A stretch of 13,203 nucleotides of DNA from Planctomycetaceae bacterium (GTDB taxonomy: Bacteria > Planctomycetota > Planctomycetia > Pirellulales > Thermoguttaceae), in contig JAIRLW010000013.1 of NCBI GenBank assembly GCA_031259095.1, positions 1 through 13,203 of the forward strand. The letters are read 5' to 3'. Of this stretch, positions 1,962 to 13,203 are shown one piece after another. The translations under genes were made by a program, and so were the position numbers. Below the pieces are notes generated by a model, which was not told the DNA's origin, searched no databases, and was given only the letters and a program-made list of their open reading frames with translations. Every line of letters starts with the position of its first letter. Within the stretch, counting starts at the first letter, position 1.

Positions 1962-2062
1962 AACTTCTAAAAACTTATTTCTCCACAGACTAAAATTGAC
2001 CGAAATCGACTAAAATCGATTTTAGTCGATTTCGGTCGATCAAAAAAGGAGTTTTTAGAAAT
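1962..2062 (+). repeat. Family A hairpin element, copy 1 (10-bp phased TCGA)
   Basis: The left end AACTTCTAAAAACTT (1962-1976) faces the right end GTTTTTAGAAAT (2051-2062). Between them is a perfect 40-base palindrome (1998-2037, half-site GACCGAAATCGACTAAAATC), extendable by three more pairs with one G-T. The tetramer TCGA starts at 2006, 2016, 2026 and 2036, with TTGA at 1996: exactly one every 10 bases. It lies 77 bases after the ROK stop. As RNA it would form a stem of over 20 pairs. Confidence 0.85.
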
Positions 2063-4897: not shown

Positions 4898-4981
4898 ATC
4901 CCATTTGTCCCTATCGTCCCCAATATCCCTAAAATATTCAATGTTAAGGACACTTGGGATACTAACGACTAATAGGACAAA
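4898..4981 (+). repeat. Family B hairpin element, copy 1 (9-bp phased GTCCC)
   Basis: This lies 33 bases after the LptF/G stop. On the left arm, (A/G)TCCC units start at 4898, 4907, 4916 and 4925. On the right arm, AGGAC/GGGAT/ACGAC/AGGAC units start at 4947, 4956, 4965 and 4974. Every interval within an arm is exactly 9 bases. The arms pair imperfectly, for example TTTGTCC 4904-4910 with GGACAAA 4975-4981. A small separate hairpin (CGAAAT 5081-5086 with ATTTCG 5091-5096) lies further down the same gap. Confidence 0.8.
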
Positions 4982-5142
4982 AGATTTTTTTCCCAAATAT
5001 CTTAGAAATTTTGAAATTCTGAGAAAAACGATTGCGCTGATTACAACGATTTTGCCGATAATAAAGAGACGTAGGTTTTTCGAAATAGGTATTTCGGTAA
5101 TTAAGTAAAAATAGTTTCGCTTTGTTCTGTTGCAGAGCCAAT

Positions 5143-6879
5143 ATGACTTCACACATTGAAAATCAATTCCCAGCAAACAATCGAGGGCTGTTATTGCGCA
5201 TTCTGTTGCTGGGTTTTGTTTTTTTTGTGTTGACAGGTCAGGGGCTGGCGCAAAATAAGAGTGAAAGCAAAACGACGGAGAAAAAATCGTTTTTTTCCTA
5301 TTTTCAAAAGAAGAAATCGACGGAATCTTCCGGCAATTCATTATCTCCGTTGTCGTGGTTTCGGAGCAAGCAGGACACGCCATCGAAAGTTGACCACGAT
5401 TCTAAAAAACCGCCGACGATTTCCAAGTCGTCAACATCGTCTCAGAAATCGGAGCCGAAGGCTAAAACATTGGATGATTTTTCGTCTAATGATTTAAATG
5501 TTGCTCCATTTCCTCCAGAGAATCCTTATTATGAGCGGAATCAAAAGCCGGTTTCGTCGCAGCAAAGCGTCGATTCTGTTTCGATTTCGGAGTCTGTGGA
5601 ACTGCCTGATCCGGACACGGTTCCTGCGTCAGCACAACACAGTTCACGGTTGGCGACTTCGAATGATTTGGAAGAACCGTTGCTGACTGGTGTGTCGTCG
5701 TATTCATTTGACACGCGGGATTGGGTTGAATCGTTTCCGGTCGATCATGTTACGGATTCGTTGTCGTCGAATCATAATCATAACCAGACTGTTCAGAATC
5801 AGACAGTTCAAAATCAGAATCAGACAGTTCAGAATCGTGTTGCGCAAACTCGTACAGTTCAAAATTCTGTTGCACAAAATCATGCGGCGACGGTTGTGTC
5901 GAATGTTCCGGCTGGGCAACAAGGTAATTTAGGAGTGAATTCGCAGCAATGGGACGGACAGGCAGTGCCGATTACAGAGATGATTGGGACGGTTTCCGAA
6001 GAGATGAAAACCGTCCGTCAGGCTTCACTCAATCAAACATCGCTCCGCCGTTCCGCATCGGAACAACACACTCAATCTCCGCAGATTAAGGACAAAGAAA
6101 TTGAAACGATAAACTTGGGAATTGATTTAACGCCGTCTTATGCGCCGCGGTTGAAATATTGTGAGATTTATGGAATGGTGGTGGTTCAGGCGAATTTTCC
6201 GTTGACGGAGATCAAATCGATTCTTGAGGAGATTAAGCAATTGCAAATTGATTTGAATCTTTACATGGGGATTCCTGCGCCGAAGGAAAAGATAGAACTT
6301 TGTTTATTTCGGGACGAAAAGACATATATGAAATTTTTGCAAGAAGTGTTTCCGAAGGCGCCGCGTGATCGTCGGGCGCTTTATATTAAGATTGACGACA
6401 AACCGGGGACCTTGCTTGTTCAAAAGACGGACGAATTTGAGATTGACTTGCGGCATGAGATGACTCATGCGATTATTCACACTTCCATTGCGACCGTTCC
6501 GATTTGGTTGGACGAAGGACTGGCGAAATATTTTGAAGTTCCGATCAAAGACCGTGCAGAGAAAAATCCGTACATGAAACAAATTCGTTGGAACACGAAA
6601 TTGGGGGCGGTTCCGTCGTTGAGTCGTTTGGAAAAGTTGGAACATATTGGACAAATGGGAGATCGGGAATATCGAGATTCGTGGGCGTGGGTTCATTTTC
6701 TGATTCACCATTCGCCGCAATCTCATCGACTTTTAGCCGGATATCTTCAACTCTTGTCAACACTTCCAGCCGAAAATGCGAAAAATCAAAATTCAACTCA
6801 AATTCCATCGATCAGTCTTTATCTGAACGAGGTCGTTGTCGGGGCAAAGGAAAAATACCGAGAACACTTTAATAAATAA
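5143..6879 (+). CDS. Secreted HExxH metallopeptidase (MA-like, gluzincin type)
   Basis: This is a 578-residue exported protein from ATG 5143; an in-frame TTG at 5122 would add seven residues in front of the signal peptide and is less likely. A signal peptide with a hydrophobic core (about 17-34) ends at GLAQ. A long low-complexity region (about 36-290) rich in S, K, P, Q and N follows, including a Q/N-rich array of TVQN-type units at about 210-247. The C-terminal half is a folded domain. It carries the zinc motif HEMTH at 438-442, and WLDEGLAKYFE, in which Glu458 is the probable third ligand. This HExxH plus downstream E(G)L/A arrangement is the MA-clan pattern seen in DUF1570-type proteins. 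The protein would act outside the cytoplasmic membrane; its substrate is unknown. No cysteine-switch or inhibitor domain is seen. The gene stands alone, with a family A hairpin 22 bases after its stop. Confidence 0.8.
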   Translation: MTSHIENQFPANNRGLLLRILLLGFVFFVLTGQGLAQNKSESKTTEKKSFFSYFQKKKSTESSGNSLSPLSWFRSKQDTPSKVDHDSKKPPTISKSSTSSQKSEPKAKTLDDFSSNDLNVAPFPPENPYYERNQKPVSSQQSVDSVSISESVELPDPDTVPASAQHSSRLATSNDLEEPLLTGVSSYSFDTRDWVESFPVDHVTDSLSSNHNHNQTVQNQTVQNQNQTVQNRVAQTRTVQNSVAQNHAATVVSNVPAGQQGNLGVNSQQWDGQAVPITEMIGTVSEEMKTVRQASLNQTSLRRSASEQHTQSPQIKDKEIETINLGIDLTPSYAPRLKYCEIYGMVVVQANFPLTEIKSILEEIKQLQIDLNLYMGIPAPKEKIELCLFRDEKTYMKFLQEVFPKAPRDRRALYIKIDDKPGTLLVQKTDEFEIDLRHEMTHAIIHTSIATVPIWLDEGLAKYFEVPIKDRAEKNPYMKQIRWNTKLGAVPSLSRLEKLEHIGQMGDREYRDSWAWVHFLIHHSPQSHRLLAGYLQLLSTLPAENAKNQNSTQIPSISLYLNEVVVGAKEKYREHFNK

Positions 6880-6900
6880 AAGTGGACATTTGATGAGGGC

Positions 6901-6992
6901 AACTTCTAAAAACTTGTTTTTTGATCGACCAAAATCGACCCAATTCGACTAAAATCGATTTTGGTCGATTTCAGTCGACGTTTTTAGAAGTT
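6901..6992 (+). repeat. Family A hairpin element, copy 2 (perfect 13-bp TIRs)
   Basis: The ends AACTTCTAAAAAC (6901-6913) and GTTTTTAGAAGTT (6980-6992) are perfect inverted repeats. TCGA starts at 6925, 6935, 6945, 6955, 6965 and 6975: six copies at exactly 10-base steps. The heptamer TGATGAG flanks both sides (6891-6897 and 6996-7002), separated from the ends by a few bases of G and C. It lies 22 bases after the peptidase stop. Confidence 0.88.
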
Positions 6993-7056
6993 CCCTGATG
7001 AGAATTTGTCCCCACTGTTACAAACGGCGCCCCCTTTTCTAATGAAGAATTTTTCG

Positions 7057-7062
7057 TATAAT
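7057..7062 (+). promoter_or_regulatory. -10 element TATAAT for the small basic protein
   Basis: A perfect TATAAT lies 49 bases before GTG 7111. The -35 region (CTTTTC/TTTTCT near 7034-7040) is poor. Transcription would begin near 7069, giving a leader of about 40 bases that contains the strong ribosome-binding site. Confidence 0.4.
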
Positions 7063-7096
7063 TCTTTTTTTTAATCTCAATTTTCATTCTCGACTT

Positions 7097-7101
7097 GGAG
7101 G
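7097..7101 (+). promoter_or_regulatory. Strong Shine-Dalgarno GGAGG that fixes the GTG start at 7111
   Basis: GGAGG sits 9 bases before GTG 7111. It is the best ribosome-binding site in the window, where most genes have weak ones, and it is the main reason to believe the 29-codon reading frame. Confidence 0.75.
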
Positions 7102-7110
7102 AATTTTAAC

Positions 7111-7200
7111 GTGGGAACCAAAAAAACAGGCAAAGGACGACGGAAAATCGGACGGAAAAAAAGACGAATGCGATCCAAAATCCGGCATCGTAAAAGTTAA
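7111..7200 (+). CDS. Small hyper-basic protein (29 aa), probably ribosome- or RNA-associated
   Basis: This short frame (GTG 7111, TAA 7198-7200) is supported by a strong Shine-Dalgarno site, a TATAAT upstream, and an extremely biased composition: 8 Lys, 8 Arg and 1 His among 29 residues, with no acidic and almost no hydrophobic residues. The core is RRKIGRKKRRMRSKIRHRK. This composition is that of tiny ribosomal proteins and extensions (bL36-, bTHX- or COX24/AURKAIP1-like peptides), which neutralise rRNA. The sequence does not match the bTHX or bL36 consensus I know, and I cannot assign it to a named family. I have the impression that similar short RKIGRKKRRMRS peptides occur in planctomycetes, which needs a database search. 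It is likely a real, highly expressed gene transcribed on its own. Confidence 0.75.
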   Translation: MGTKKTGKGRRKIGRKKRRMRSKIRHRKS

Positions 7201-7239
7201 GTTCGATTCAAGTTTGCTCTGAATTTGAATTTGATAAAA

Positions 7240-7405
7240 GGGAATCTCTAAAAATTTGTTTTTAATCACAGAATTATTTGTCCCAATTGGTCTCTAATGT
7301 CCCTAAAATTAAGGCTAAGGTGATGATAGAGACAAAAAGGACAAATGATTTTGAAATCAAAGTTGTGCTTAAGAAATAGTAATAATAGGTATTTTTAGAG
7401 TACCC
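7240..7405 (+). repeat. Family B hairpin element, copy 2 (with outer inverted repeats)
   Basis: The outer ends CTCTAAAAAT (7246-7255) and ATTTTTAGAG (7391-7400) are perfect 10-bp inverted repeats, bordered by GGG and CCC. The core pairs ATTTGTCC 7276-7283 with GGACAAAT 7339-7346, and TCTCT 7291-7295 with AGAGA 7328-7332. Left-arm units start at 7280, 7290 and 7299 and right-arm units at 7329 and 7338, so the 9-base spacing is nearly kept. AATCACAGAATTATTT (7264-7279) recurs inverted in copy 3, showing that the element extends beyond the GTCCC core. Confidence 0.75.
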
Positions 7406-7478
7406 AAAATATTTTAAGCGGAAATACGAAAATCATAAATTTGCCGAAATAGCGTAAGCCGTTTGATGGGAGATTGTT

Positions 7479-8651
7479 GTGTTTATGAAAAACCATCGCG
7501 TTCTCGTTCCGGTTTCGCATCCGCTTGGCGGTATTCGGACGTACATGCTCTATTATTTTCGGCGGCTTCACCGTGAAGAAGGTTATCGGTTTACGTTCCT
7601 TTCCGAAGCCGGAAACGCTTTTGAAACGTTTAAACGCGATCTTACGGATTGGGAAGGCACAGAGTATATTGAAGTTCCTCCGAAATGCGGAAGCAAAACA
7701 ATAGTTCAAACGATTCGCCAAACTCTCAAAACACAATCGTTTGCGTTGCTCCATTCGCAAGGTCTCAAAGTGGGAACAGAAACCGCGACCGCAAATTATT
7801 TCAGGAACATTCCGCATCTGATTACCTTACACGATGTGATTCTTCCGCAAAATGAAATACCAGGGCGTTTCAAATGGTTGAAAAAAGCAATCATTTCCGC
7901 CGTAACGCGTCGTGCTTCGTTTATCATACCGGTTTCTTGCGATTGTGAAGTAAATCATTTACAAATCTTTCCGGCTTGGAAACGCGGACCGGTTCGGATT
8001 AAAACAATTCTAAACGGTATTGATCTTGAACGGATTGAACATTCCCGATTGATGTTTGAAACATGTCGGGAACAACGGTTGCGTGAACAATTCGGAATCG
8101 GACGTGAAATGGTTCTCGGTGGTTTTTTCGGACGGTTCATGCCTCAAAAGGGAATCGATCTTCTGCTAAAAGCGTTGGAACTGCTCCACGAACAAGGTTA
8201 CGCAAACCGTTTTCATCTTATTATAACGAAAGATTGGAATGGTTTTCTGAATGAGACAATCAACCTTGTTGCGGGAAATCCGAAAATTTCCCGAATGATC
8301 CATTTTATCGACCCGATACCGGACATAACGCCTTTACTTCTTCAAGTTGACACAACCATAATCCCGTCACGTTGGGAAGCCTGCCCGATTCTTCCGATGG
8401 AATCGCTTGTTCTTGGAATTCCTGTTATCGGATCGGATTGTATTGGTCTTCGTGAAGTGTTACACGGTACGCCTTCATTGGTTCACCAACACGACGACCC
8501 GGAATCACTCGCAACGACCTTGATAAAATTTATCGAATCGCCAACAGCCGATGCCGCTAAACGTTACGCTATGGAGGCTGTAAAACGGTTTGATGTTCGT
8601 TTGGCAACGGATCAGTTACTCGAAATTTATCAATCAATCTGTAATAAATAA
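7479..8651 (+). CDS. Glycosyltransferase family 4 (GT-B fold)
   Basis: This is a cytoplasmic or membrane-associated glycosyltransferase of about 390 residues, transferring a sugar from a nucleotide-sugar donor to a polysaccharide, glycolipid or similar acceptor. The N-terminal Rossmann domain shows VPVSHPLGGIRTYMLYYFRR (a GG loop near residues 16-18) and LLHSQGLKVG. The second domain shows NGIDLERI, FFGRFMPQKGIDLLLKALE, and then the retaining-GT4 E-x7-E motif in EACPILPMESLVLGIPVIGS, with Glu300 and Glu308. GTG 7479 is chosen because GGGAGA at about 7467-7472 gives it a 6-7 base spacing; ATG 7485, two codons later, is the alternative. It is monocistronic, flanked by a family B element upstream and two strong hairpins downstream. 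Acceptor and donor cannot be judged, and no polysaccharide cluster surrounds it. Confidence 0.9.
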   Translation: MFMKNHRVLVPVSHPLGGIRTYMLYYFRRLHREEGYRFTFLSEAGNAFETFKRDLTDWEGTEYIEVPPKCGSKTIVQTIRQTLKTQSFALLHSQGLKVGTETATANYFRNIPHLITLHDVILPQNEIPGRFKWLKKAIISAVTRRASFIIPVSCDCEVNHLQIFPAWKRGPVRIKTILNGIDLERIEHSRLMFETCREQRLREQFGIGREMVLGGFFGRFMPQKGIDLLLKALELLHEQGYANRFHLIITKDWNGFLNETINLVAGNPKISRMIHFIDPIPDITPLLLQVDTTIIPSRWEACPILPMESLVLGIPVIGSDCIGLREVLHGTPSLVHQHDDPESLATTLIKFIESPTADAAKRYAMEAVKRFDVRLATDQLLEIYQSICNK

Positions 8652-8668
8652 TCTCAATACAACGTCAA

Positions 8669-8740
8669 GCCGGTTGATCTTTTGAACGACAACCAACCGG
8701 CGCGACCGCCCAGCGGGCGGGTCGCCTACCTGATACTTTT
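8669..8740 (+). terminator. Tandem hairpins after the glycosyltransferase gene, likely terminator
   Basis: The first hairpin pairs GCCGGTTG 8669-8676 with CAACCGGC 8694-8701 (17-base loop). The second runs 8702-8725: GCGACCGCCC, a three-base loop AGC, then GGGCGGGTCGC with one bulged G. A run of six T follows at 8737-8742, about 11 bases after the stem. The G+C content is far above that of the surroundings. The offset T-run makes this an imperfect intrinsic terminator. Confidence 0.5.
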
Positions 8741-8753
8741 TTATAAGTTGCTC

Positions 8754-8783
8754 TTGACGTCCCTTGCGACTTTACTCTATACT
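8754..8783 (+). promoter_or_regulatory. Sigma70-type promoter, TTGACG-N18-TATACT
   Basis: The -35 TTGACG (8754-8759) and the -10 TATACT (8778-8783) each match consensus at five of six positions, with an 18-base spacer. It is the best complete promoter in the window. Transcription would start near 8790, about 250 bases before the TPR gene, so the family A copy 3 hairpin would lie inside the 5' leader. Confidence 0.6.
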
Positions 8784-8824
8784 TAATGCCCTAAAGATAT
8801 TCAGGAACCTTTTTGATTATTTTT

Positions 8825-8934
8825 GATTAAGATAACTTCTAAAAATTTCGACTAAAATTGACCGGAATCGATTTTAGTCGAATTTAATCGATTTCGGTCG
8901 ATCAAAAAACAAGTTTTTAGAAGTTGCCTTAATC
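8825..8934 (+). repeat. Family A hairpin element, copy 3 (extended ends)
   Basis: The ends AACTTCTAAAAATT (8834-8847) and AAGTTTTTAGAAGTT (8911-8925) match inversely. The match continues outward as GATTAAG (8825-8831) against CTTAATC (8928-8934) with two unpaired bases between. TCGA starts at 8848, 8868, 8878, 8888 and 8898, with TTGA at 8858: a strict 10-base rhythm. Inside, segments pair in an interleaved order (8849-8858 with 8871-8880; 8860-8870 with 8889-8899), unlike the nested palindrome of copy 1. Confidence 0.85.
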
Positions 8935-9043
8935 GTTAATTTTGTCAATCTTTGTTGAACAGGAACGTTATTCGAAACGCGGGAAAAAAACCTGATTCTT
9001 TTTTTCTCCATTTTCTCCACAAACGAGATTAGGAAAAAATATT

Positions 9044-9955
9044 ATGGACAGTGGTCGTCGTCATCAGTTAGCGCAAAATGAATTATTGCATTGGCTTGTA
9101 ACACAATATGAAGAATGGCTTAAACCGAATGCCTATTGGATTGGCGGCGGGACTATTGCGATTCTGGTTTTGTTAGGAGCCTTTTTGGGTTCTTCGGGAA
9201 TATCGGAGTGGAATAAGGCTCAAATCTGGAACGGATATTATGCCGCGATTCATTCCGAAAATAGCACGGAGGCATTGCAACTCTTGGTGGAAACCTCGAA
9301 AGGAACCATCGCCGAACAAGCACGTTTGACCTTGGCGCAAATCCAACTCGGTGAAGGATGTCATCAGTTGTTCACCGATAAAGTCAAAGCAACCGAATCA
9401 CTTGAAAAGTCGGTCGAACAATTTCAGTTCCTTCAAAAAAACGCTAACAATAAAAATATTCTTTTACAAGCGAATTTTGGTCTTGCGCAGGCATGGGAAA
9501 CATTAGCGGCAGTGCGTGTTGGTAAAAATGATCTTGCGGAAGCGGAAAAAGAATACAAAAAAATTGCGGAACAATATCCTAACGAATTTCTCGGACAAAA
9601 AGCCCAAAAACAGTTGCTTCTGATTTCCAATGCCAATACCTTGAAATTTTTTGAACTTTCCGCCGCCAAAGTAACCGAACCGACCAAACAAGATGATTTT
9701 AAGGTTGAAATTGACAAAAAAGACCCGTTTCTCGATAATTCCAAAGATTTTGATGTTCAAAAGGTTTTGGAAGGCGGTTCCAGTTTGAGAACCGAGTTTA
9801 GCGATCATGCGGCAGAGTTGTTGGGTAATCCTAAGCCGGCAGAAACAACGCCGGAAGTAAAAATTGAAATAAAAACAGACGCCGATACCAAAACAGAAAC
9901 AGAAACAAAAAACACCGAAAAACCCGACGAACCACCGTCTCAGGAAAAAAACTAG
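9044..9955 (+). CDS. Membrane-anchored tetratricopeptide-type protein (YfgM-like architecture)
   Basis: This 303-residue protein has a short cytoplasmic head (MDSGRRHQLAQNELLHWL...), one transmembrane segment at about 31-49 (YWIGGGTIAILVLLGAFLG), and an extracytoplasmic helical region. That region has TPR-like helix pairs: AEQARLTLAQIQLGEG, ANFGLAQAWETLAAVRVGKN and LAEAEKEYKKIAEQYPNEFLGQKA. The C-terminal 60 residues are disordered and rich in E, K, T and P. Head, single helix and TPR repeats match the YfgM/ancillary-SecYEG architecture, and the RRHQL..NEL start resembles planctomycete proteins of this type. Such proteins scaffold periplasmic or membrane complexes; no enzymatic motif is seen. 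The start ATG 9044 has no clear ribosome-binding site. A good promoter lies 260 bases upstream. Confidence 0.75.
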   Translation: MDSGRRHQLAQNELLHWLVTQYEEWLKPNAYWIGGGTIAILVLLGAFLGSSGISEWNKAQIWNGYYAAIHSENSTEALQLLVETSKGTIAEQARLTLAQIQLGEGCHQLFTDKVKATESLEKSVEQFQFLQKNANNKNILLQANFGLAQAWETLAAVRVGKNDLAEAEKEYKKIAEQYPNEFLGQKAQKQLLLISNANTLKFFELSAAKVTEPTKQDDFKVEIDKKDPFLDNSKDFDVQKVLEGGSSLRTEFSDHAAELLGNPKPAETTPEVKIEIKTDADTKTETETKNTEKPDEPPSQEKN

Positions 9956-10008
9956 GGAATTTCTAAACATAAAATTACCTTTAGTCTAAATACCAATTGT
10001 TTTTCAAA

Positions 10009-10123
10009 AATTATTTCGTCCCATTTGTCCCTATCGTTCTTAATGTCCCTAAAATTTTCAGTGAAGGAATATTAAGGAATATTAAGGACAAATAGGACGA
10101 TTGAGACAAATAATTCTGTGATT
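10009..10123 (+). repeat. Family B hairpin element, copy 3
   Basis: The outer stem is AATTATTT 10009-10016 with AAATAATT 10108-10115. Inside, GTCCCATTTGTCC 10018-10030 pairs with GGACAAATAGGAC 10086-10098 with one mismatch. Left-arm units start at 10018, 10027, 10036 and 10045 (all 9 apart), and right-arm units at 10085, 10094 and 10103. A short tandem GGAATATTAA lies in the right arm near 10066-10085. The right end AAATAATTCTGTGATT (10108-10123) is the exact inverse of 7264-7279 in copy 2. It lies about 55 bases after the TPR stop. Confidence 0.82.
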
Positions 10124-10167
10124 GAAAAAGAAAAAAATTTTTCCCCGAGAAAATTTTTACTGAAGTC

Positions 10168-10195
10168 TTGAACGTGAAATTTTTTCCGTTAAGAT
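10168..10195 (+). promoter_or_regulatory. Candidate promoter for the cupin gene, TTGAAC-N16-TAAGAT
   Basis: A -35-like TTGAAC (10168-10173) and a -10-like TAAGAT (10190-10195) each match consensus at four of six positions and are spaced 16 bases apart, about 85 bases before the cupin start. The hexamers are weak. Confidence 0.3.
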
Positions 10196-10279
10196 ATTCG
10201 TTTAGTATTTTTGAAATTCGTTAATGGATAGCGAATTTCAGTTCACAATGAAACGTTCCCAATTTGAAAGGAAGAATGT

Positions 10280-11026
10280 ATGAATCGACGTCATTGGTTG
10301 ACAAATGTTCTTGGCGGAACCGCGATGGCTGCCGCTGTAGTGTCTGGTAGTGAAGTTCTTGCTCAGCCCTTGCAAGGACGCCTTCGTCCGCCGGGAAGAC
10401 AGACTCTCAAAAAGTACGGCAATTCCCATTTTTACAACGCGGATGGTAGTTTCAATGAAAAAGCGGCAAAAGAAGCGTACATGGAACTACTCCGATTCCA
10501 TCGTTATTCGTTACCCGATGTGGTCAACGATGAACGATTTTGGATTCGGGATTTTGGTCTTGGCGATTTCGCTAATGTCGGAATGGGCGGAATTTTTTGG
10601 CTCAACGACAAGGAACACGGTTATTTCGGTCATGAAATTTACCTTCTGCCGTTCCAGATGATTCCCGAACACGCTCATGTCGCAGCGGAAGACAAACCGC
10701 CGAAACATGAATATTGGCAAGTTCGGCATGGAAGTATTTACAATTTCGGTAAAGGAGGTTCCAAAGACGATTTGGCGAAACTGCCGGTTCAACTCCCGAA
10801 ATCCCAACTCGACGCCGATGCGATTACGGCGTTCACTTGTGTTGAACTCAAAGCGGGAACCGGAAAAGGAAGCGAAGCCGCAATCACCGGTTTGGGAGAT
10901 TACCATTTTATGATGGGCGGACCTCAAGGTGCGATTGTTACGGAATACGCCTCATTCCACGCCGGAACCGGTCTCCGATTCAAAAATCCAAAAGGTGTGA
11001 ACGACAACACCAAAGCCTCAAAATAA
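10280..11026 (+). CDS. Exported cupin protein, D-lyxose isomerase-like
   Basis: This 248-residue protein begins MNRRHWLTNVLGGTAMAAAV and ends its leader at about LAQP (28-30): a twin-arginine-like signal, so it is probably exported folded. The mature part is a cupin. IPEHAHVAAE gives His131 and His133. KPPKHEYWQVRHGS gives Lys142 and Glu144 followed by the G of the turn. GDYHFMMGGPQGAIVTEYAS gives His209, the usual fourth ligand. The H-x-H, E, H set and the GAIV.E..S..H segment match the metal-dependent sugar isomerases of the D-lyxose isomerase type, although an exported member would be unusual. A purine-rich AAAGGAAG site sits 8-15 bases before ATG 10280. It lies between hairpin elements and is probably monocistronic. 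The fold is fairly sure, the reaction is not. Confidence 0.75.
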   Translation: MNRRHWLTNVLGGTAMAAAVVSGSEVLAQPLQGRLRPPGRQTLKKYGNSHFYNADGSFNEKAAKEAYMELLRFHRYSLPDVVNDERFWIRDFGLGDFANVGMGGIFWLNDKEHGYFGHEIYLLPFQMIPEHAHVAAEDKPPKHEYWQVRHGSIYNFGKGGSKDDLAKLPVQLPKSQLDADAITAFTCVELKAGTGKGSEAAITGLGDYHFMMGGPQGAIVTEYASFHAGTGLRFKNPKGVNDNTKASK

Positions 11027-11045
11027 ATAAAACGGCTAAATTCAT

Positions 11046-11141
11046 TTGTCTCCTAAGTCCCTAATATCTCATTTGTCCCCCAATCGTCCCTTTTTATAGA
11101 GACATTAGGGACAAATGGGATGATAGGGACTGAGGGGACAA
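11046..11141 (+). repeat. Family B hairpin element, copy 4 (longest near-perfect stem)
   Basis: This is a 96-base imperfect palindrome beginning 19 bases after the cupin stop. Left-arm units start at 11048, 11057, 11066, 11075 and 11086. Right-arm units start at 11099, 11108, 11117, 11126 and 11135, exactly 9 bases apart. TTGTC at 11046 pairs with GACAA at 11137, and most of about 40 positions in between can pair. With a loop of only a few bases it would be a very stable RNA hairpin or DNA cruciform. Confidence 0.87.
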
Positions 11142-11180
11142 TCATAAAAAATCATTAACCCTATTACGATTATTATTCTC

Positions 11181-11495
11181 ATGCAATATTTACATTTTGG
11201 CGTTCCGACAACCCAAGAAAAGAATTGGTCGGGTTATCTTGCCGATCTTGGAGTTCATGTTACGGATCCGGGAGCGGATATTTTTGGCATTGAGTGGTTA
11301 AAATTCGACGCCGATAGTCCGATGCACGAATCTATTAAAACAAAACCGCACGCCGCGTTTGCGGTTGACGATCTTGACGCGGCGCTTGCCGACAAAAAAG
11401 TTATTTTACCGCCTTATTCTCCGACGCCGGGTTTTCGTATCGCGTTTATTGATTACAACGGTGCGATCATCGAATTAGCGGAAACAAAACAATAA
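11181..11495 (+). CDS. VOC (glyoxalase/bleomycin-resistance fold) family protein
   Basis: This is a 104-residue single VOC domain, presumably cytoplasmic and probably dimeric. The two beta-alpha-beta-beta-beta modules are recognisable: MQYLHFGVPTTQEKNWSGYL opens the first, and KTKPHAAFAVDDLDAALADK opens the second, ending in FRIAFIDYNGAIIELAE. Candidate metal ligands are His5, His57 and Glu98, the positions used by metal-binding VOC enzymes. The segment IFGIEWLKFDADSPMHES between the modules is typical of uncharacterised short VOC proteins and not of lactoylglutathione lyase, so no substrate is proposed. No ribosome-binding site is evident. The gene lies between two family B hairpins, so co-transcription with its neighbours would have to pass through them. 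Confidence 0.8.
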   Translation: MQYLHFGVPTTQEKNWSGYLADLGVHVTDPGADIFGIEWLKFDADSPMHESIKTKPHAAFAVDDLDAALADKKVILPPYSPTPGFRIAFIDYNGAIIELAETKQ

Positions 11496-11531
11496 AAAAG
11501 GTAACGCTAAAAATATCTTTGTCTTTTAAAT

Positions 11532-11602
11532 GTCCCATTTGTCCCTATCGTCTCTAATGTCCCAACTTTAGGGACAGACGGGATTTTAGGGACAAACGGG
11601 AA
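11532..11602 (+). repeat. Family B hairpin element, copy 5 (perfect 9-bp phasing in both arms)
   Basis: Left-arm GTCCC/GTCTC units start at 11532, 11541, 11550 and 11559. Right-arm GGGAC/GGGAT/GGGAA units start at 11571, 11580, 11589 and 11598. TCCCATTTGTCCCTA 11533-11547 pairs with TAGGGACAAACGGGA 11587-11601 with one mismatch, and TGTCCC 11558-11563 pairs with GGGACA 11571-11576 around a 7-base loop. It begins 36 bases after the VOC stop. Confidence 0.88.
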
Positions 11603-12999: not shown

Positions 13000-13203
13000 G
13001 CCCTGAAAGGGCAGTCAGATTATAGCCTTCCCCAACGGGGTAGGTTAAAGTCATCACAACACCCAGCCCTGAAAGGGCGATATAATAGTTGAAAGTGGAT
13101 AGTGGATAGTAAAAATTCCGCTTGCGTAACTCTCCACTATCAACTATTCCGTTGCCCTTTCAGGGCGTTGGGTTGGCGGGGGAACTTACCCCTACCCCGT
13201 TGG
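13000..13203. repeat. GCCCTGAAAGGGC palindrome block in a large inverted repeat (cut by window end)
   Basis: The 13-base palindrome-like motif GCCCTGAAAGGGC occurs at 13000-13012 and 13066-13078, and in the inverse orientation at 13154-13166. CCAACGGGGTAGG (13032-13044) is matched by its exact complement CCTACCCCGTTGG at 13191-13203. In the centre, a GTGGATA tandem (near 13096-13110) faces CTCCACTATC near 13132, flanked by AATAGTTGA and TCAACTATT. The whole is an inverted repeat about 170 bases long whose right arm may continue beyond the window. Similar GCCCTGAAAGGGC repeats occur between genes in several bacterial phyla. I see no gene here. Confidence 0.75.

Follow-up and report, generated by a model that had tools for sequence, protein, structure and literature searches.

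We analyzed a 13,203-nt stretch of Planctomycetaceae DNA (the window; contig JAIRLW010000013.1 of assembly GCA_031259095.1, hereafter genome G000), in which five intergenic elements, here called family B, carry GTCCC-like units at 9-base steps in a left arm and GGGAC-like units at 9-base steps in a right arm (Table 1). This build, described in an earlier note on the same DNA, was present in all five copies when unit positions were assigned with at most one mismatch. In copy 5, every interval in both arms is exactly 9 (left units at 11532, 11541, 11550 and 11559; right units at 11571, 11580, 11589 and 11598). The same is true of copy 1 (left 4898, 4907, 4916 and 4925; right 4947, 4956 and 4974) if ACGAC at 4965, with two mismatches, is counted as the unit filling an 18-base step. 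Copy 2 has one 10-base step among its intervals; in copies 3 and 4 the steps are 9 and 18, with a further step of 11 in copy 4. Exact same-strand pairs in the window numbered 4, 5, 3 and 0 at distances of 9, 18, 27 and 36, compared with 4 in total at 49 other distances. The inverted 16-base segment said to be common to copies 2 and 3 was also found. The better strand of each copy folded more stably than 200 of 200 shuffled sequences (z −5.2 to −8.5; copy 2 was folded as 7266–7352 only), and the plus strand of copy 1 alone folded weakly (z −1.9, equalled by 12 of 200 shuffles). Genes were called with a simple open reading frame picker; all five copies start 20–54 nt past a stop codon. Copy 1 begins 34 nt past the stop of an LptF/G-type gene, the stop ahead of copy 2 (7198–7200) closes a 29-residue frame, and copy 5 lies upstream of pgk. 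We propose, with a probability of roughly 0.64, that family B consists of non-autonomous mini-transposons (miniature inverted-repeat transposable elements, MITEs) and their decayed remnants, which carry a 9-base minisatellite in both arms.

Table 1 Family B copies, their flanks and family A elements in the window
Feature	Position	Strand	Basis or remark
Copy 1, two-armed 9-phased array	4898..4981	.	Unit positions, own-genome matches
Possible 4-base target duplication AAAA, left of copy 2	7236..7239		Flank reading; low complexity
Copy 2, complete MITE, both terminal inverted repeats flank the array hairpin	7240..7405	.	GGGAATCTCTAAAAAT...ATTTTTAGAGTACCC
Subterminal 16-mer AATCACAGAATTATTT, marks one MITE subtype	7264..7279	+	Inverted copy at 10108–10123
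Possible 4-base target duplication AAAA, right of copy 2	7406..7409		Flank reading
Copy 3, two-armed array	10009..10123	.	Sequence reading, unit positions
Copy 4, most stable stem (−54.7 kcal/mol)	11046..11141	.	Folding, unit positions
Copy 5, perfect 9-phase in both arms	11532..11602	.	Unit positions
Family A MITE	1965..2060	.	
Family A MITE, interior hairpin of 10-base TCGACYAAAA units	6898..6995	.	Ends GGCAACTTCTAAAAA/TTTTTAGAAGTTCCC
Family A MITE	8831..8928	.	

The proposal of the earlier note that these elements form a real family with a tandem-unit build was borne out by counts, phasing and clusters in genome G000 (3.84 Mb in 653 contigs, 78% complete), where GTCCC(N0–24)GTCCC occurs 1,339 times, compared with 35 for the reversed motif. 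A working set of 101 contigs (690 kb) comprised the window, 60 contigs picked for matches and 40 taken by consecutive number (the unchosen contigs, 257 kb in all). When 5-mers with at least three different letters were ranked at distances of 6–15, GTCCC at distance 9 was the most over-represented periodic 5-mer of this set (309 vs 6.4). It also ranked first in the unchosen contigs (65 vs 1.3) and in 20 contigs of genome G004 (19 vs 0), and stood among the leading 5-mers in 20 contigs of genome G017 (25 vs 0.1). The order GTCCC then GGGAC outnumbered the reverse order in G000 by 239 to 14 in 20 chosen contigs and by 113 to 20 in the 40 unchosen ones. Array clusters, defined as at least three exact units, numbered 130 in the working set (86 two-armed and 44 one-armed), and extrapolation from the unchosen contigs (34 clusters in 257 kb, 20 of them two-armed) gives ~508 per genome. 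Because the definition needs three exact units, decayed copies are missed; among the window copies only 3, 4 and 5 qualify, copy 3 as one-armed. Copy 1 matches 43 places in its own genome, itself included, several of them near full length at 71–81%. The idea that the arrays of G004 are one-armed only proved wrong in part, as at least two facing pairs with spacers of more than 80 nt occur there (L134).

Many elements in the window and the genome carry GGGAAYYTCTAAAAA at one end, facing its inverse at the other. The 15-mer GGGAACTTCTAAAAA (at most 2 mismatches) has 830 matches in G000, compared with 17 for the reversed sequence. Inward-facing B-type ends were found within 110 bp on 53 of the 260 sides of the 130 clusters and wrongly oriented ones on 4; at random positions 0.032 sides each carry such an end, about 4 being expected for 130. 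The corresponding figures for the unchosen contigs were 12 and 1 of 68 array sides. In the 8 clusters with both ends, the element measures 129–203 bp between CTCTAAAAAT and its inverse. Such elements are short and without a transposase of their own, and their ends occur in the hundreds. Copy 2 has both ends, and a degenerate left end, GGGAATTTCTAAACA, was recognized by eye near copy 3 (9955–9969, two mismatches). The 23-mer around the subterminal 16-mer has 26 matches with at most 5 mismatches in the 690 kb; a GTCCC unit follows within 60 nt downstream in 20 of them, and TCTAAAAA (at most 1 mismatch) lies within 45 nt upstream in 12.

Matches to PF01609 (DDE_Tnp_1) above the cut-off were present in 20 of the 21 genomes of the genus. 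On contig C457 of G000, a B-type end adjoins the N-terminus of a transposase fragment whose relatives occur in 15 of the 21 genomes. Two insertion sequences (IS) of ~1.3 kb lie in congeners, at G004:C651 2524–3848 and G005:C429 192–1494, and both stretches are bounded by a perfect GGGAACTTCTAAAAA and, opposite it, TTTTTAGAAGTTCCC, their ends having been read and their interiors placed by position; chance would give ~0.1 such matches (at most 3 mismatches) in all 1,591 bases read. By position, their open frames, 377 and 361 codons long, contain the matching N-terminus and a PF01609 domain above the cut-off. TTAA stands on either side of the G005 element, and the right flank of the G004 element, read for two bases only, does not match the left. 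Related right ends were found in G017 and G011. The perfect ends in G004 and G005 are of type A, and a B-type IS end was seen on one side only (L322, L327). On domain, size and 4-base duplication, the putative parent may be labelled IS5-type, with IS4 or IS1182 as alternatives; a 64-residue N-terminal piece of the transposase scored 12.4 bits (E 0.053) with NCBIfam IS1182, far below the cut-off of 270, and matched no Pfam family over its cut-off.

Forty-one elements have both ends at most 260 bp apart, and an exact 4-base target duplication flanks 19 of them, compared with 2.2 expected. Duplications of 3 bases (2 vs 2.5 expected) and 5 bases (0 vs 0.2) were not in excess, and one 7-base match was seen. 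Most of the 41 belong to the sister family A, whose ends are of the same kind as those of family B and whose interior differs; among the periodic signals of G000, TCGAT/TCGAC at distance 10 comes straight after the GTCCC arrays.

The scheme that we favor is as follows. A complete copy would be ~140–215 bp long, with GGGAAYYTCTAAAAAY as its ends, short subterminal stretches next to them and in the middle a palindrome, each arm of which would be a small 9-base minisatellite of GTCCC-N4, usually of three or four units. The DDE_Tnp_1 transposase of an IS of the genus with similar ends would have spread the copies, leaving 4-base target duplications. A transposase of the G004/G005 type would thus have moved the array-bearing copies, and arrays without recognizable ends would be decayed copies. 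Later on, arrays would change by whole 9-base units, and their arms would be complementary from a palindromic founder and a common unit, without maintenance in each copy. On this scheme the vehicle is ordinary (MITEs of an IS) and the cargo unusual (a conserved GTCCC with variable words), and an insertion sequence is singled out as what probably moved an abundant repeat of these genomes.

Several observations weigh against the mini-transposon reading. Only 45 of the 130 arrays carry even one recognizable end and 8 carry both, so that not all members bear ends and MITE membership is claimed for the end-bearing copies only. Most of the 41 elements tested for duplications carry no array; among the three recognized array-bearing ones (L093, L119, L282), a duplication flanks one, a number too small for array-bearing elements by themselves. 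G004 has the IS, yet no short two-ended element was found in the 20 contigs read from it. Array flanks match other array flanks in 98 of 257 cases (74 of 130 arrays), compared with 67 of 154 for control intergenic segments; with no excess over controls, flank sharing was discarded as proof of one family. The array of copy 4 stands where relatives have a terminator-like hairpin (see below), which is not a clean insertion, and no duplication is visible there; moreover, the cluster definition fails to catch window copies 1 and 2. Finally, other phyla also have arrays with this core and spacing. Among the longest frames between end pairs 0.5–3.5 kb apart in the fetched contigs, no autonomous element was recognized by eye; the IS came to light through PF01609. 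A plasmid search with a family A element returned three records, with matches covering 21–27%. A 20-base alpha subterminal pattern, allowed 5 mismatches, was dropped as unspecific, since 58 of its 76 places are without an array.

The arrays themselves combine a conserved core with variable words. In 180 triplets of G000 with exact outer units and an unconditioned middle unit, the per-base agreement of the middle core with GTCCC is 0.93, a value inflated because the search misses arrays with decayed cores. Neighboring 4-base words in these triplets agree at 0.33, below the 0.43 of random words from the same genome; core, neighbor and random agreements are 0.97, 0.37 and 0.55 in G004 (15 triplets) and 0.89, 0.52 and 0.61 in G017 (11 triplets). 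Since neighboring words are less alike than random ones, they are not fresh slippage copies, and a core kept while the words vary indicates that GTCCC is constrained or preferentially re-created. Of the 27 places that hold one particular subterminal sequence (at most 5 mismatches), 26 continue into GTCCC units, whose number ranges from 1 to 9 and is most often 4, an indication that arrays gain and lose whole 9-base units. Chains of at least three units (n = 159) contain four units in 96 cases, three in 51, five in 6 and more than five in 6. Among the single-base changes scored in 40 sandwiched units, transitions predominate (15 G1A, 11 C4T, 5 C5T, 3 C3T and 1 T2C, with 5 transversions). A comparison of core and word change rates from copies with homologous flanks gave no usable rates, as only 28 pairs could be aligned free of shifts and array ends vary in unit number.

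The earlier note had further held that the four bases between units vary while the arms stay complementary, and that pairing is therefore maintained by selection or by template-switch copying. Complementarity stands at the level of the family; it does not stand element by element, when own and foreign arms are compared. In the 59 of 86 two-armed clusters with clean order and both arms of at least 30 nt, the best local match of the left arm averaged 17.71 with its own right arm and 17.83 with the right arms of other elements (p 0.59), and the own right arm was the best match for 0 of 59 left arms. Covariation between arms thus fails as a general property. Stricter word tests were slightly positive: the word-only test gave 1.89 compared with 1.63 (sd 0.14, 45 elements), and exactly complementary words were found in register in 19 of 82 cases, compared with 9 of 59 and 5 of 48 when shifted by one unit. 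There may be a weak register effect, which the positional consensus (outer ATTA/ATTT, then TATC, then TAAT/TAAA) can explain. On the transcribed strand of 48 stems, we counted 32 G-U and 35 A-C mismatches, with 104 others and 936 Watson-Crick pairs, and the sense RNA was more stable than the antisense in only 21 of 51 clusters (p 0.059 in the opposite direction); neither fold nor mismatch counts revealed an RNA strand preference. Selection on an RNA hairpin should favor G-U pairs and sense stability, and neither was seen. We therefore conclude that the complementarity of the arms was inherited from a palindromic founder, with both arms built of one unit, and does not stem from pairing maintained in each copy. 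A striking hairpin can appear selected for pairing though its arms evolve independently.

These arm and strand results bear directly on an RNA-level reading, in which the element is a hairpin in transcripts at gene ends, a terminator or 3′-end stabilizer whose pairing is kept by selection. In its favor, 77 of the 86 two-armed clusters fold better than shuffled sequences (z < −3, 20 shuffles each) and the arrays lean towards stop codons. The association with gene ends predicted by the earlier note is positive but modest: in co-directional gaps, 35 of 51 two-armed clusters are nearer the stop (median 49 vs 113 nt), as are 16 of 24 one-armed clusters. The two-armed clusters comprise 51 co-directional, 7 convergent, 9 divergent, 1 inside a gene and 18 at contig edges, and for the 67 in gaps about 42, 8 and 17 would be expected from intergenic bases; the 44 one-armed clusters comprise 24 co-directional, 4 convergent, 5 divergent, 5 inside a gene and 6 at contig edges. 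Both genes around copy 4 lie on one contig in six congeners by DNA search, and four of these sites were read (G011, G018, G005 and G001, at 80–88% DNA identity; G019 and G020 were left unread). The array is absent in all four, and each has an intrinsic-terminator-like hairpin with a T-run (L334–L337) that is missing in G000, which is suggestive of copy 4 having taken over the place of a terminator. Upstream of pgk, the array of copy 5 is absent in all three relatives read (G014, G013 and G005, in the same range of identity); there the alignment is confined to the pgk side. A general rule of terminator replacement was not sustained, as terminator-like sites were found at 1 of 71 genes with arrays and 11 of 228 without, a difference that is not significant (p 0.31) and that involves sites barely above the in-gene background of G000 (12 of 326 vs 8 of 238). 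An intrinsic terminator has a stable hairpin directly followed by a T-run; in the window, copy 1 alone has such a run, T7 at 4985–4991, six bases after its last unit. Two detectors placed no terminator-like site at any of copies 1–5, where none of the 12 sites of the scan lies, and T-runs (6 of 8) within 24 nt past the array were no more frequent on the sense (12 of 51) than on the antisense strand (18 of 51). The array-adjacent consensus, TTATTT before GTCCC, reads AAATAA past the right arm. Known RNA families gave no match at the gathering score, and relaxed matches were to eukaryotic microRNA models, i.e., generic hairpins. We consider a maintained RNA hairpin improbable.

A DNA-level alternative, which we also regard as unlikely though a little less so, holds that the GGGAC-N4 units, whose four G-tracts are separated by loops of 6 bases, are kept because they form quadruplexes, MITEs being no more than the vehicle; the arrays would then parallel, at period 9, the GGGNATC repeats known from Xanthomonas and Nostoc. 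Of the 85 G-quadruplex motifs in the 690 kb, 79 fall within arrays (14 of 15 in the unchosen contigs), and the peak at four units matches that reported for the heptamers by Rehm et al. (PMC4692102). The motif is present in copy 1 (minus strand) and in the right arms of copies 4 (11108–11137) and 5 (11571–11600). The full motif was found in only 72 of the 130 arrays, however, and in neither copy 2 nor copy 3. A quadruplex needs neither T2 nor G1 of GTCCC, yet T2 is conserved at 0.97–1.00, at least as well as the C-run (96 four-unit chains, at most 1 mismatch per core), although mutation bias may contribute to this figure. Among the matches listed for an acidobacterium, judged by eye, runs of 3 to 14 exact units show no mode at four. 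Highly improbable, in our view, is spread by a RAYT (Y1) transposase in the manner of repetitive extragenic palindromic (REP) elements. Short intergenic palindromes in high copy would fit it, and each array-rich genome searched in other groups has 2 to 19 matches to the PF01797 domain. However, PF01797 is unmatched in G000, at its 78% completeness, and in G008, both of which bear arrays, and is matched in G001, G006, G011 and G018, all without a three-unit array; RAYT was rejected as the mover on these grounds. To our knowledge, Y1 enzymes do not make 4-base duplications. The mini-transposon reading remains the one that we prefer.

GTCCC, the only core searched widely, also recurs far beyond G000, and other cores may behave alike. 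Three units at 9-base steps were found in 10 of 40 genomes searched (614 matches in G004, 294 in G017 and 274 in G000), and 13 of the 21 genomes of the genus have no three-unit array. Four units were found in 10 of 119 genomes of the family and three units in 22 of 149 genomes of the phylum, with 158 matches in G277 compared with 0 in the control; several other genomes of the phylum have one or few arrays, some with equal control matches. A scan of named genomes for four units gave at least 80 loci, a mixture of coding repeats and intergenic arrays. Searches of 22 entire genomes followed, 19 of them the sources of loci selected by eye and the other three G131, G277 and G253 (four of the 19 equal G004, G012, G017 and G131 in counts and are probably the same genomes), and all 22 have array matches. 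Against the reversed motif, the counts were 258 vs 2 in the acidobacterium, 164 vs 0 in Planctomicrobium, 157 vs 0 and 40 vs 0 in Victivallales genomes, 144 vs 0 and 21 vs 0 in Planctomycetaceae D1_Bin_8 and D4_Bin_5, 126 vs 2 in a Verrucomicrobia subdivision 3 genome and 75 vs 0 in another verrucomicrobial genome, 51 vs 0 in Lentisphaeria, 28 vs 0 in Hydrogenedentota, 30 vs 3 in Fischerella and 20 vs 2 in Symploca. Little or no excess was seen in Thermoanaerobaculia (35 vs 26), Schlesneria (3 vs 1) and an actinobacterium (2 vs 0). As the 22 genomes were picked for holding an array, these counts indicate recurrence and not frequency. Among the matches listed in G277, the acidobacterium and the Thermoanaerobaculia genome, two-armed places face the other way, with GGGAC first.

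Given its presence in other phyla, the array may predate the MITE of G000 and be unconnected with it. A tentative wider view, to which we give less credence than to the mini-transposon reading, is that 9-phased GTCCC-N4 arrays, often in facing pairs, constitute a separate class of repeats, expanded independently in Planctomycetota, in Verrucomicrobia/Lentisphaeria/Victivallales, in Acidobacteria and in others, each genome with its own 4-base words. The cause of the expansion would be a reader shared by many lineages, either a protein that binds DNA or machinery that handles quadruplexes, which would recognize five bases in each nine; transposons such as these MITEs would be local carriers only. 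The wider puzzle across phyla is a period of nine in which five bases are conserved and neighboring words differ more than random ones do.

Other repeats were observed beside these arrays. A CTCTG/CTGTG core forms another 9-base array in G017 (33 vs 0.2 at distance 9; L147–L166), with fewer in G004 (L127–L146), so that period 9 is not confined to GTCCC. G017 also has a separate repeat of single GTCCC-N4-GGGAC palindromes adjoining ACATGTT (L149 9014–9245, L153 4005–4221, L160 7997–8278), with the core and 4-base gap of family B but inverted, and with TTTTTAGAGA ends in L149 and L153. Some arrays have long shared flanks that appear protein-coding by eye (L067 10207, L088 186, L307 232, L312 3338), suggesting that they ride on a duplicated gene. 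Near the contig end, window positions 13010–13203 hold a third repeat type, with GCCCTGAAAGGGC-like short palindromes and runs of the GTGGATAGTGGATAGT heptamer.

In the literature searched, we recognized no publication on a GTCCC 9-base repeat, an absence limited to those searches; of five literal array strings, only GGGACNNNN matched, in an unrelated cloning paper. Three known systems invite comparison, the last two being the closest. The GTAG- or CGTC-tagged REP/REPIN palindromes (PMC3733652) are, like family B, short, intergenic and in high copy, and they are known in Planctomycetes–Verrucomicrobia–Chlamydiae (PVC) bacteria; the text of that paper contains no word beginning GTCCC or GGGAC. 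Family B differs in that its own genome has no RAYT match. The heptamer repeats of Rehm et al. 2015 (PMC4692102), GGGNATC or GGGGA(C/T)T in Xanthomonas and Nostoc, resemble family B in forming short arrays between genes, in having one G-run in each unit, in favoring four units and in being inverted at times; of the family B arrays, the 72 of 130 given above have at least four G-tracts with short loops. The heptamers have a period of 7, and the portions seen mention no transposon ends, whereas in family B the period is 9, the words vary and a third of the arrays have ends like those of a transposon. The BrickBuilt MITE of Porphyromonas gingivalis (PMC4596501) likewise joins IS5-family-like ends to an internal tandem repeat, is intergenic and has many incomplete copies (4 of 19 with both ends). 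BrickBuilt, however, carries a 23-nt tandem direct repeat without spacers in 19 copies, whereas family B is a palindrome, each arm of which consists of 9-base units that include a variable 4-base word, and has an estimated 500 array clusters.

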